In this document: positions 42,599-51,969 of the stretch, in pieces | Numbering within the stretch: the first letter of the stretch is position 1 | How the letters are laid out: every line of letters begins with the position of its first letter | Assembly (NCBI GenBank): GCA_022571215.1 | Contig: JACZYG010000007.1 | Coordinates: forward strand, 1 to 64,000 | From: Fidelibacterota bacterium | GTDB taxonomy: Bacteria > Fidelibacterota > SORT01 | Length of the DNA: 64,000 nucleotides | Reading direction: 5' to 3' | Made by a program: the position numbers and the translations under genes | The notes under the pieces: model-generated | The model's database searches: none | What the model saw: only the letters and a program-made list of their open reading frames with translations | What the model was told of the DNA's origin: nothing

Positions 42599-43924
42599 AT
42601 GAGTTCGATGCGCAATATAGCACTGAATCTTCTATTGGAATCCCATAAAACAGGAAAATATATTGATCGGTTGTTAAACAAATCATTATCGAATAATTCC
42701 TTTCCGGATCAGGAGAAAAGATTTCTGACGGAGCTCGTTAAGGGAACTACGCGTATGCAGGGGCTTCTGAATTTTTACCTCAAAGAGTTGATAAAAGGTC
42801 GTTTAAAGAATGTGAAAATCTCGGTAAGGCAGATTCTGATACTCGGGCTTTATCAGCTGATCTATATGGATTCGATACCGGCATACGCCGCTATAAACGA
42901 ATCGGTAAAACTCGCTAAAAAAACCGGAAATGAACGCGATGGAGGACTTGTAAATGCGGTTCTGAGAAATTTTGAACGGAACCGGTCGGATCTGCAGGAT
43001 AAAATAGAATCATTTCCCGATGAAAAGAGAATATCGATCAAATATTCACATCCGGAGTGGTTGATCAAAAGATGGATAGAAAGATTCGGTAAAGAGGAAA
43101 CCGAAAATCTTTGCGGCTATAATAACAGCGTGCCTCGAATAAGCGTCAGACTGAATAAATTACTTAAAAAGCATCCTAAAATTCGGCAATTGATGAACAA
43201 GGAGCCGGATAAGATAATAAAATCTAAATATCTTGAAAATTATTATACTTTCGAAAAGGGATATAACTATTCGATATGGGAAGCATTCGATGATGGAGAA
43301 CTAACTATTCAGGATGTCAGCGCCGGACTCGCAGTGCGACTGTTAGCTCCGGAAGCGGGGGAGACGGTAATAGACCTCTGCGCGGCTCCGGGCGGTAAAA
43401 CCGGGGCAATCGTGGAAAGCATGGGAGATAAAGGTAGGGTCGTAGCAGTAGATTCTGATGAGTATCGGCTCTCTCTCGTGAAGGAGCACGAAGAACGGCT
43501 CGGTCTGAGCAGCATAGATTATATTTACGGAGACGGCAGCGCCATTGAATTACCAACGGCGGATCGGATATTGGTTGACGCGCCCTGTTCAGGAACGGGA
43601 GTATTCGCTAAAAGGGCGGATATTCGATGGCGGAGAAAAGAAACAGATATTGAAGGGCTGATTAAATTACAACTGAATTTGCTTCAACACGCATCCGAGC
43701 ACTTGAAAAAAGGCGGGATTCTTGTATATAGCACGTGTACAATGGAGCAAGAAGAAAATTGGGGAGTCGTAGGAAAATTCCTCGAGAACAATTTGGACTT
43801 TAAAGTTGAAGATGCGGGGAAATACGTCCCAAATGAACTTACGGACGAAAAAGGCGCTGTTGCAACCTATCCGTTTAAACATTATATTGACGGTTCATTC
43901 TGCGTACGGATGACAAAGAACTGA
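42599..43924 (+). CDS. rsmB: 16S rRNA (cytosine-5) methyltransferase RsmB
   Basis: NusB-like N-terminus; LCAAPGGKTGAI, VDAPCSGTGVFAKRADIRW, YSTCTMEQEEN. Confidence 0.94.
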   Translation: MSSMRNIALNLLLESHKTGKYIDRLLNKSLSNNSFPDQEKRFLTELVKGTTRMQGLLNFYLKELIKGRLKNVKISVRQILILGLYQLIYMDSIPAYAAINESVKLAKKTGNERDGGLVNAVLRNFERNRSDLQDKIESFPDEKRISIKYSHPEWLIKRWIERFGKEETENLCGYNNSVPRISVRLNKLLKKHPKIRQLMNKEPDKIIKSKYLENYYTFEKGYNYSIWEAFDDGELTIQDVSAGLAVRLLAPEAGETVIDLCAAPGGKTGAIVESMGDKGRVVAVDSDEYRLSLVKEHEERLGLSSIDYIYGDGSAIELPTADRILVDAPCSGTGVFAKRADIRWRRKETDIEGLIKLQLNLLQHASEHLKKGGILVYSTCTMEQEENWGVVGKFLENNLDFKVEDAGKYVPNELTDEKGAVATYPFKHYIDGSFCVRMTKN

Positions 43925-48646: not shown

Positions 48647-49933
48647 ATGGACGGAAATATGACTATTGTTAAGAATATGAAAGAGAACGCAGTTATTGTC
48701 GGAGTTGCTCTGAAAGACACTTCGAGAGAGGAATTAAACTCTTCGATGGAGGAATTAAAGCAGCTATCAATCACAGCTGGAGCGAACGTTGTTGAAGTGA
48801 TTTCGCAGAATCTTGCTTCAATTAATCCATCGACTTATATCGGCAAAGGAAAAGTTGAAGAGTTAGCGAAACTGATTAAAGAAAAAGAAATTCAATTGGC
48901 GATATTTGACGATGAGCTTTCTCCCGCGCAAGCTTCTAAACTCGAAAAGATAATAGAGTGCGCTGTAATTGACCGAAAAGGATTGATTCTCGATATCTTT
49001 GCTCTTCACGCGCGGAGCCGTGAATCGAAAATTCAGGTAGAACTTGCTCAGCTCAAGTATATGCTGCCCCGTCTGAGAGGGCAATGGACTCATCTCGAAA
49101 GACAGGAAGGAGCGATAGGTACCAGGGGACCTGGTGAAACTCAGCTCGAGACCGACCGCCGCGCTATCAGGATTAAAATCAGCAAACTTGAAAAAGATCT
49201 CGATAAAATAGATTCCCAGAGAAACGTTCGGCGAGCCGGGAGAAGCAGACTCAAGATGGCTTCGCTAATAGGCTATACTAATGCCGGTAAATCCACTCTC
49301 CTGAACGCTCTAACCGGAGCGGACGCCCTTGTGGAGGACCAACTCTTTGCAACGCTTGACACCACCGTAAGAAGGATTGATTTTGATAACGGGTCAGATA
49401 TTCTTTTGAGCGACACCGTGGGGTTTATCAAAAAACTGCCTCATGAACTCGTTGCATCATTTCGGAGCACGTTCTCGGAAGCAATTGAAGCTGATTTGTT
49501 ATTGCACGTGATAGACACAAGTCAACCGAATTTCGAAGAACAAATGGAGGCGGTGACATCAGTGCTCCACGAGATTAAAATCACTGATAAACCGATCATC
49601 TATGTATTTAACAAGATGGATATTATTGATTCAGCGGGGAGGAAAGAGGCTTTACTTAAAAATTATCCTGATGGAGTGTTCATTTCCGCATCAAAAAAAA
49701 CCGGATTGAATGAACTGTTGATACAAATAAGGAAGTTGGCTTTTGGCTCCTATATCAGAAAGACACTTTCTATTCCACTAAGCGAGGGGAAAATTCTTGC
49801 ATCAATATATAACAGTGGAAGGGTCTTGAATAGAATAGAGGCGAACGGCAAAGTCGAAATTACTTTTGAAGCGTCTCCGGAAATCGTTTCGATAATCATG
49901 AAGAGTATTGACAACGCGGAGAAGCCGAATTGA
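48647..49933 (+). CDS. hflX: GTPase HflX
   Basis: GPGETQLETDRRAIRIKI, LIGYTNAGKSTLLNALTGA, LSDTVGFIKKLPHELVASFRSTF. Confidence 0.96.
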   Translation: MDGNMTIVKNMKENAVIVGVALKDTSREELNSSMEELKQLSITAGANVVEVISQNLASINPSTYIGKGKVEELAKLIKEKEIQLAIFDDELSPAQASKLEKIIECAVIDRKGLILDIFALHARSRESKIQVELAQLKYMLPRLRGQWTHLERQEGAIGTRGPGETQLETDRRAIRIKISKLEKDLDKIDSQRNVRRAGRSRLKMASLIGYTNAGKSTLLNALTGADALVEDQLFATLDTTVRRIDFDNGSDILLSDTVGFIKKLPHELVASFRSTFSEAIEADLLLHVIDTSQPNFEEQMEAVTSVLHEIKITDKPIIYVFNKMDIIDSAGRKEALLKNYPDGVFISASKKTGLNELLIQIRKLAFGSYIRKTLSIPLSEGKILASIYNSGRVLNRIEANGKVEITFEASPEIVSIIMKSIDNAEKPN

Positions 49934-50466
49934 AAAGCATCGAAATATCAGGAGCCAAATTACTGTTGGCAAAAGGAGATATAGCTCTTGAAGAGAGTGA
50001 TGCCATTGTCAACGCTGCTAATAATGTATTGTGGATGGGGTCAGGAGTAGCCGGCGCAATCAAAAAAGAAGGGGGACAGGAAATAGAGGAGGAGGCTGTT
50101 TCCAAAGGACCGATTGAAATCGGAGAGGCAATTCTGACGGGCAGCGGGAATCTTAAATCAAAGTGCGTTATTCACGCTGCGGTGATGGGACAAGATCTTT
50201 CTACCGATGCTGATACTGTTAAAAAAGCTTTGATTAGCAGCTTCGATCTTGCGGAACAAGAAGGGTTGAACTCGATTTCCGTTCCTGCGCTCGGAACCGG
50301 AGTAGGCGGATTTTCAATTGACGCGTGCGCTGAAATTATGGTTCGGGTAACCATTAACTTTCTTCAGCGGTCGGTGAATATCAAATTAGTGAAAATTGTT
50401 CTTTTCAGTGATTCGGATTTAGAAACGTTTGAAGGCAAACTTGAGGAGATTTTTTCTCGAAAATAA
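49930..50466 (+). CDS. Macro domain protein (ADP-ribose binding, YmdB-like)
   Basis: KGDIALEESDAIVNAANNVLWMGSGVAGAIKKEGG; SVPALGTGVGGF. Confidence 0.93.
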   Translation: MKSIEISGAKLLLAKGDIALEESDAIVNAANNVLWMGSGVAGAIKKEGGQEIEEEAVSKGPIEIGEAILTGSGNLKSKCVIHAAVMGQDLSTDADTVKKALISSFDLAEQEGLNSISVPALGTGVGGFSIDACAEIMVRVTINFLQRSVNIKLVKIVLFSDSDLETFEGKLEEIFSRK

Positions 50467-50640
50467 TAGACCTCAACAGAGTGTTTAATTGGGAACCGTA
50501 TCATTTACGGTGGGTACTTCCGGAACGCTTCGAGGTTCCGCCTTGTTCGTGGGGCATTCTCTTGACGCTCCGAGTTCAGTTCCCTGCTTTAGAGTGTTGG
50601 TTCCAAGCAGAACACTCTCAGTGTCGAGGTCTAAATCGAA
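50467..50640 (-). ncRNA. Putative structured ncRNA (identity unknown)
   Basis: 18-bp closing stem (50468-50485 with 50611-50632) with 4-nt bulge, nested helices, and a - strand promoter-like TTGCTT-17-TATATT at 50731-50703; strand inferred. Confidence 0.4.
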
Positions 50641-50702
50641 GAAAATATTTCAAAGAGCAAAGGCACCTCCTATGGAAGTTTTATAACCTATCTTCACTCA
50701 AC

Positions 50703-50731
50703 AATATAGGATGCTCGAAAGATTAAAGCAA
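50703..50731 (-). promoter_or_regulatory. Sigma70-like promoter for putative ncRNA
   Basis: On - strand TTGCTT (50731-50726), 17-nt spacer, TATATT (50708-50703). Confidence 0.4.
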
Positions 50732-50757
50732 GCGTTTGCGGATTACAGCTACGTAGA

Positions 50758-51969
50758 TTATTTATACGAGTTGATTTTGGTTACTTCGCCCTGAGACATC
50801 GCAATTGTAATGGTACCGACAGAGTCGCTCCATACATTTACGGTAGTCCTCATCATGTCGAGTATCCTGTCAACGGCTACGATCAGTCCCACGCCCTCTA
50901 AGGGAAGACCAACCGCATTAAGAATGATACTCATCATCACGAGACCTGCCATAGGTATTCCCGCAGCTCCGATGGATGCGAGTAAGGCAGTTACCACAAC
51001 TATCATCTGTTGCGTAAAGGAAAGCTCAATACCGTAAGCTTGCGCAATGAAAACAGCCGCTACACATTCATATAGCGCGGTGCCGTCCATATTAATGGTC
51101 GCTCCAAGAGGCAGCACAAAACTCGAGATCTTGTTTGAAACTCCCGCATTCTTCTCAACACTGCTCATTGTGACAGGAAGAGTTGCCGATGAAGAGGAAG
51201 TAGAAAATGCGGTAGTAAGGGCGGTCGCCATTGCCTTAAAGAAATTGAGCGGATTCACGCGAGCGATAAAATATAAGATGAGAGGAAGCGTGACGAATGC
51301 GTGAATAATCAAACCGGCGGCTACCACGGACATATAACTTAACAGGGGTCCGAAAGCTGAAAACCCTGTTTTTGCGACTATCTTCAGCATCAACCCGAAT
51401 ACGCCGATAGGCGCAAGTCTGATGATCACACCGGTCATTTTCATCATTATTTGAAAAATGGATTCAAAGAAACCTGTCATTTGGGTGCGGCTTTTTTCGG
51501 GCAATCGAGTGATAAAATAACCGAATAGGAGGCTGAAAAATATAATTGGTAAGATCTCGCCATTCGCCATTGACGCTATTGGGTTCGTCGGAATTATCCG
51601 ATATAAAATATCAATAGGTGATTTTATGGTGGTGAGTCCTGTGGGCGCTTCTTCAAGACCTAAGTTCGCTCCTACTCCCGGCTGAACTAAGTTGACAAGG
51701 AAAAGACCGGTGATAATAGCTAAAAAACTCGTACTTATATAATAGGTGAAGGTCTTGAGGCTGATCATTCCTAATTTGCCGGCAGAGCCGATGCTTGTTA
51801 CTCCTGAAATAATAGAGGAAAGAATTAGAGGGACGATAATCATTTTGAGGAGTCTAAGGAAGAGATCACCAAGGAAAGCTAACCATAATAGTTGCTCACC
51901 GAATATTGAGCCGGCGGCGCTGCCGATCACCATAGCGATTAATATTTGCCAGTGCAATTTTAGCTTCAC
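50758..51969 (-). CDS. Dicarboxylate/amino acid:cation symporter (DAACS, GltP/GltT-like)
   Basis: AFSTSSSSATLPVTM, PLGATINMDGTALYECVAAVFIAQ, DRILDMMRTTVNVWSDSVGTI. Confidence 0.95.
   Translation of the reverse strand: MKLKLHWQILIAMVIGSAAGSIFGEQLLWLAFLGDLFLRLLKMIIVPLILSSIISGVTSIGSAGKLGMISLKTFTYYISTSFLAIITGLFLVNLVQPGVGANLGLEEAPTGLTTIKSPIDILYRIIPTNPIASMANGEILPIIFFSLLFGYFITRLPEKSRTQMTGFFESIFQIMMKMTGVIIRLAPIGVFGLMLKIVAKTGFSAFGPLLSYMSVVAAGLIIHAFVTLPLILYFIARVNPLNFFKAMATALTTAFSTSSSSATLPVTMSSVEKNAGVSNKISSFVLPLGATINMDGTALYECVAAVFIAQAYGIELSFTQQMIVVVTALLASIGAAGIPMAGLVMMSIILNAVGLPLEGVGLIVAVDRILDMMRTTVNVWSDSVGTITIAMSQGEVTKINSYK

Follow-up and report, generated by a model that had tools for sequence, protein, structure and literature searches.

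Genomic Setting of the Element

The coordinates first given for the element (50467-50757) span the whole 291-bp gap that separates two convergent genes, encoding a macro-domain protein and an SDF-type sodium:dicarboxylate symporter, within the 64,000-nt stretch of DNA analyzed here (the window; Table 1); the RNA itself occupies 50464-50635. The symporter protein places the DNA in Candidatus Neomarinimicrobiota, next to the single-cell genome MT.SAG.2 (93% identity). A copy search showed that the element is present once in its own genome. Its inverted ends are flanked by TA, and this arrangement, together with the convergent neighbours, could point to a mobile repeat whose ends are inverted, such as a MITE, or to a plain bidirectional terminator. 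The existence of a single genomic copy and of phylum-scale orthologues with 6S-specific covariation leaves that explanation with virtually no probability, and the MITE or repeat is refuted by its copy number and by homology.

The promoter TTGCTT-17-TATATT, proposed in the original prediction to lie 5′ of the RNA, is conserved. Specifically, the pattern TTGNNT-17-TAT[AC]TT is found at the same distance in all four family members, with the -35 elements TTGCTT, TTGCTT, TTGACT, and TTGATT. A scan for a stricter promoter consensus did not list it.

Positions 1-311 of the window hold the 3′ end of a 23S rRNA at the contig start and then a 5S rRNA. The 16S rRNA was not found in the draft assembly, so the comparison with rRNA leaders below uses a genome of the same family (G004). 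A stand-alone NusB is encoded elsewhere in the genome, on contig C35. A second NusB-domain match lies in the window at 42605-42979, within a 441-residue open frame that is probably the 16S rRNA methyltransferase RsmB.

Table 1. Coordinates of the 6S RNA gene, its structural parts, its leader, and the adjacent genes in the window.
Feature	Position	Strand	Remarks
Macro-domain protein gene	49930-50466	+	PF01661
6S RNA, 172 nt	50464-50635	-	Full match to RF00013 and to the phylum-specific model
Closing stem, overall	50467-50477/50623-50633 and 50478-50485/50611-50618	-	18-19 bp with a 4-nt bulge
Closing stem P1, 5′ arm TAGACCTCGAC	50623-50633	-	All 11 pairs covary
Closing stem P1, 3′ arm GTTGAGGTCTA	50467-50477	-	Followed by a T-rich stretch
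Closing-stem extension, 5′ arm AGAGTGTT	50611-50618	-	Compensatory change relative to L014
Closing-stem extension, 3′ arm AACACTCT	50478-50485	-	Compensatory change relative to L014
Helix P2, 5′ strand GGAACC	50599-50604	-	Covaries; pRNA expected to be copied through P2
Helix P2, 3′ strand GGTTCC	50492-50497	-	Covaries
Central bubble, 5′ side AACACTCTAAAGCA	50585-50598	-	Holds the predicted pRNA start
Central bubble, 3′ side	50498-50511	-	Hairpin ACCGT (50507-50511)/ACGGT (50495-50499)
Apical arm GGGAAC ... GTACCC	50512-50584	-	Covariation
boxA-like leader motif TGCTCTTTGAAAT	50647-50659	-	Phylum rRNA-leader profile and conservation
Small leader hairpin ACTTCC-ATA-GGAGGT	50665-50679	-	Upstream of boxA; same genus only
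-10 element TATATT	50703-50708	-	TATCTT in L010 and L016
-35 element TTGCTT	50726-50731	-	17-bp spacer; TTGACT in L016, TTGATT in L010
SDF-type sodium:dicarboxylate symporter gene	50758-51969	-	PF00375

Identification as 6S RNA

A default Rfam scan of the window returned rRNA and one tRNA only, with no call for 6S RNA. The original statement that no family is recognised thus holds at the default cutoff. It does not hold in E-value mode, where the 6S model RF00013 aligns to the minus strand over its entire length with a score of 35.4 bits (E 9.9e-6). Since this is below the curated cutoff of 46.4 bits, a routine scan misses the gene. The 6S-Flavo model (RF01685) had no match up to E = 10 in the 50467-50757 stretch.

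The identity was settled by the relatives, namely a locus in a genome of the same family (L010, genome G003) that scores 56.4 bits against RF00013, above the curated cutoff, and 87 homologues that fit one 6S fold. Additionally, the element is one intergenic gene with its own promoter and a size within the range of about 160-200 nt. The resemblance in length and terminal stem to 6S-like regulators that had been remarked on earlier is therefore that of a true 6S RNA, as judged by the model match and by covariation. We regard it as highly probable that the element is a Neomarinimicrobiota 6S RNA gene, the only one in its genome, and that it works by the promoter-mimic mechanism, with polymerase binding and pRNA synthesis ascribed to it by inference.

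Among 61 genomes of the phylum, RF00013 matched in 20 at E ≤ 0.001, and the match was above the cutoff in 10. A phylum-specific model built from 20 aligned sequences detected 6S RNA in 49 of the same 61 genomes. Overall, 160 of 245 genomes, representing 68 of 84 genera, had the RNA, nearly always as one copy. The 6S RNA of this marine phylum is therefore mostly invisible at the standard Rfam cutoff, and annotations wrongly imply that it is absent. No article joining 6S RNA and Marinimicrobia was found in the open-access literature.

Some further observations concern distribution and gene order. No 6S match was found in the listed genomes of the small-genome family f6 (G009, G035, G080-G090; 0.4-1.0 Mb), some of which are 93-97% complete, and G009 (98% complete) also lacked a match with the Rfam model. 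This streamlined lineage may have dispensed with 6S RNA. Many of the genomes G033 (contig C2), G049 (C17), G037 (C27), G228 (C14), G029 (C32), G053 (C51), G057 (C32), G021 (C119), G017 (C59), G012 (C12), and G025 (C92) have the RNase P RNA and the 6S RNA on one contig, about 6-7 kb apart. The window's genome does not have this synteny, its RNase P RNA being on C4. In several sister-phylum genomes (L245, L247, L252, L254, and L255), inspection by eye placed the 6S RNA close behind an open reading frame with a ZapA-like C-terminus, an order that we take to resemble zapA-ssrS of E. coli.

Secondary Structure and Covariation

The minus strand folds with -64.0 kcal/mol (z = -6.3), and none of 200 dinucleotide shuffles folded as well, while the plus-strand fold is weaker (z = -4.05). 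Because the departure from chance is much larger for the minus strand than for the plus strand, the minus strand is taken to be the RNA strand. The proposed minus-strand ncRNA is thereby upheld, and the doubt about the strand that had accompanied it is removed. A structure on the plus strand was rejected, as were the short ORFs that overlap the element on that strand, on account of the weaker fold and of RNA-type covariation on the minus strand.

The fold is a rod consisting of a closing stem, helix P2, a central bubble, and an apical arm, and it is supported by covariation. In a first alignment of 20 phylum sequences, made by MAFFT with no use of structure and containing 27 invariant columns, 94.7% of the cells were paired when the 6S fold was imposed, and 27 of the 37 pairs had changed on both sides. 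The covariation score was 0.488, compared with 0.221 for shuffled alignments and at most 0.113 when the partners were slid by 1-3 columns. Among 87 distinct phylum sequences, compensatory changes were found in 35 of the 37 pairs and the score rose to 0.658 (shuffled, 0.241), although these homologues are related to one another and the counts overstate their independence. The larger alignment was fitted to the phylum model, whereas the MAFFT alignment was not. P2 covaries among relatives, with the variants TGGAACC/GGTTCC, TAGAACC/GGTTCTA, CAGGATC/GGTCCTG, and CAGATCC/GGATCTG.

The highly structured element described from the window sequence is real, with all of the named pairings in place, and it recurs in relatives with covariation, as noted above. 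The 18-bp bulged stem AGACCTCGAC/GTTGAGGTCT is the conserved 6S closing stem. The CCGTA/TACGG helix corresponds to the hairpin on the 3′ side of the central bubble, which was more stable than loop-shuffled sequence in 63 of 71 phylum sequences. The GGGAAC/GTTCCC pairing, which would be a collapse helix, is present in the window and has no phylum-wide support. Neither P2 (GGAACC/GGTTCC) nor the boxA-like leader motif had figured in the original prediction. The T-rich stretch that follows the 3′ arm of P1 may serve as a terminator; a terminator scan of the minus strand recognised none there.

Two exclusive folds had also been proposed, in which AGAGTGTT pairs either with the 3′ copy of AACACTCT or with a second AACACTCT in the 5′ side of the bubble (the complement of 50591-50598); on that reading the RNA would be a bistable regulator. 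Both partners do occur in the window, and predictions give a strong 5′-bubble hairpin for the window's genus, L016, and L114. The rival pairing is not conserved. In L014, from the same genus, the two arms of the closing-stem extension are AAAGTGTT and AACACTTT, with G-C replaced by A-U in a compensatory change. The bubble copy is still AACACTCT and no longer matches the altered arm, which leaves an A.C mismatch in the rival helix. A hairpin on the 5′ side of the bubble was likewise tried as a phylum-wide feature. Striking as it is in the window, L003, L006, and L017/L114, it failed the comparison of each sequence with its own shuffles, the phylum-wide value of -1.77 kcal/mol being no better than the shuffled -1.68 kcal/mol. 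The predicted 5′-bubble hairpin of B. subtilis 6S-1 RNA was also unconfirmed by probing (PMC8876501). Based on these results, a bistable switch is very improbable.

A boxA-like Motif in the Leader

The predicted leader between the promoter and the 6S RNA contains the motif TGCTCTTTGAAAT, whose counterparts are TGTTCTTTGATAA in L016 and TGATCTTTGACAT in L010. Its letters are like those of the boxA in the rRNA leaders of the phylum. In the same-family genome G004, the rRNA leader carries TGATCTTTGACAA 63 nt past its -10 box and reads TGATCTTTGACA at the motif, and the family's 6S leaders have TGCTCTTTGAAA, TGTTCTTTGATA, and TGATCTTTGACA. The motif contains a G that is also carried by the rRNA boxA of Bacillus. 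Except for this G, it equals the known boxA, GYTCTTTAANA (PMC5725501).

Within a single genome, a match to so short a motif is not significant, as TGNTCTTTGANA occurs 17 times in the 2.56-Mb genome, and the case rests on conservation. A 10-base profile was made exclusively from 19 rRNA-leader motifs of the phylum, chosen by eye, and was applied with a threshold of 6 bits. It had a match in the last 40 nt before the 6S start at 65 of 87 loci (75%), compared with 9 of 172 far-upstream controls (5%) and 8% of shuffles; the remaining 22 of the 87 leaders fell below the threshold, and these loci, being related, do not count as independent. The motif is mostly found at -7 to -16 relative to the 6S RNA, and at -24 in the window's family. 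The profile also matched before tmRNA in 24 of 27 genomes (controls, 6 of 54 stretches) and before RNase P RNA in 12 of 27 (controls, 2 of 54). In these genes a boxA-like GCTTTTTGA precedes the mature 5′ end by about 10-14 nt (tmRNA, L274-L303; RNase P RNA, L215-L244). The tmRNA and RNase P leaders of the window's own family are without a boxA-like motif.

Inspection by eye found no such motif upstream of the 6S genes of 11 sister-phylum genomes, the tmRNA of 14, or E. coli ssrS. The notion that boxA is an ancient trait of 6S RNA was rejected, as it was seen neither in the 11 sister-phylum 6S genes nor in E. coli.

Based on the identity with the rRNA motif of the phylum and the presence of NusB in the genome, the motif can be read as a NusB-S10 site, and it is reasonably probable that it is a boxA, that is, an RNA-level signal for Nus factors. 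One alternative is that the TCTTTGA block is a DNA element of the promoter or start site, comparable to the Bacteroidota -7 box TAnnTTTG. The block does lie 6-22 nt after the -10 box in most lineages, close to where transcription is expected to start, and 6S, tmRNA, and RNase P RNA genes all have examples of it. Nevertheless, its distance from the -10 box varies between 6 and 44 nt among the 6S promoters that are better resolved (43-44 nt in the window's family), and in the G004 rRNA leader it is 63 nt, deep inside the transcript; such variability favours an element of the RNA over a promoter part with a set position. The recognisable promoter is, moreover, TTGAC-17-TATATT, and the near-identity with boxA given above also weighs against this alternative, which is unlikely.

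A second alternative is that the block guides the processing or folding of stable RNA precursors from their 5′ ends, with no role in antitermination. Its near-fixed spacing in tmRNA, RNase P RNA, and often 6S RNA, where the mature end follows after about 10-14 nt, would fit such a signal, but the motif lies 83-106 nt from the mature end in rRNA and 24 nt away in the 6S RNA of the window's family. We consider an exclusive role of this kind doubtful, if conceivable. A processing or folding signal is also compatible with boxA, because Nus factors are said to act on the folding of rRNA (PMC5725501).

In gamma-proteobacteria, boxA is also found before non-rRNA genes, in a survey that states that non-coding RNAs were not considered (PMC5725501). 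No relevant article joining 6S RNA and boxA was found in the open-access literature, as judged by titles and term counts; two articles contain both terms, but only once or twice.

Proposed Function

If the locus works as its sequence suggests, transcription from the sigma70-type promoter TTGCTT-17-TATATT would start near 50696 and yield a precursor in which a leader of about 60 nt precedes the 172-nt 6S RNA. The boxA-like motif, being of the phylum's rRNA type, would be bound in the leader by NusB/S10, which could make this untranslated, strongly folded transcript resistant to Rho or help it to fold, as proposed for rRNA. By virtue of its membership in the 6S family, the RNA is expected to bind the sigma70 holoenzyme and to template pRNA. 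The folded rod would mimic an open promoter and hold the housekeeping RNA polymerase, as in other bacteria. When nutrients become available again, the polymerase would use the bubble as template and synthesize a short pRNA on through P2, beginning with 5′-GUUGGUUCCAAG... at C40 (50596), a start predicted by position. P2 would then open, the 3′-bubble hairpin would be kept or strengthened, and the enzyme would be freed.

Overall, the body of the RNA is an ordinary, if diverged, 6S RNA, and its variant feature is the conserved leader motif of rRNA type, which suggests that the phylum makes 6S RNA with its rRNA machinery. We lean slightly toward the broader view that the stable ncRNAs of Neomarinimicrobiota (rRNA, 6S, tmRNA, and RNase P RNA) share one boxA/Nus-factor regime. 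If so, the RNA that shuts down RNA polymerase would be made with the elongation machinery of rRNA, and the leader motif would be a testable link between the growth-rate control of rRNA and 6S RNA. Should the transcripts of 6S RNA, tmRNA, and RNase P RNA be targets of Nus factors, boxA would mark stable RNAs in general in the phylum, beyond rRNA.

Comparison with Known Systems

The RNA resembles the SsrS RNAs of RF00013 in its length, closing stem, P2, central bubble, and apical arm, as well as in the conserved GGG/CCC and bubble sequences. It differs in that the window's copy, like most copies of the phylum, has diverged to below the cutoff. Most 6S genes of Neomarinimicrobiota also have a boxA-like leader motif, which was not seen upstream of E. 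coli ssrS or of the 6S genes of the 11 sister-phylum genomes.

As in rRNA leaders, where boxA is the NusB/NusE site (PMC5725501), the motif is located past the promoter, in what is predicted to be the leader, and it has the same letters as in the phylum's rRNA leaders. It differs in standing before a regulatory RNA, and before tmRNA and RNase P RNA, near the mature 5′ end, and NusB/NusE binding is putative here.

Parallels in structure exist with B. subtilis 6S-1 RNA (PMC8876501), which in its free state has a small 3′-bubble hairpin like the one predicted here. In both RNAs the 3′ strand of P2 could pair with the distal 5′ bubble (GGGAAC/GTTCCC here) as a "central bubble collapse helix," although across Neomarinimicrobiota this helix is unsupported. 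The pRNA starts at nt 40 in B. subtilis (PMC8876501), and nt 40 is likewise the start predicted for the RNA of the window.
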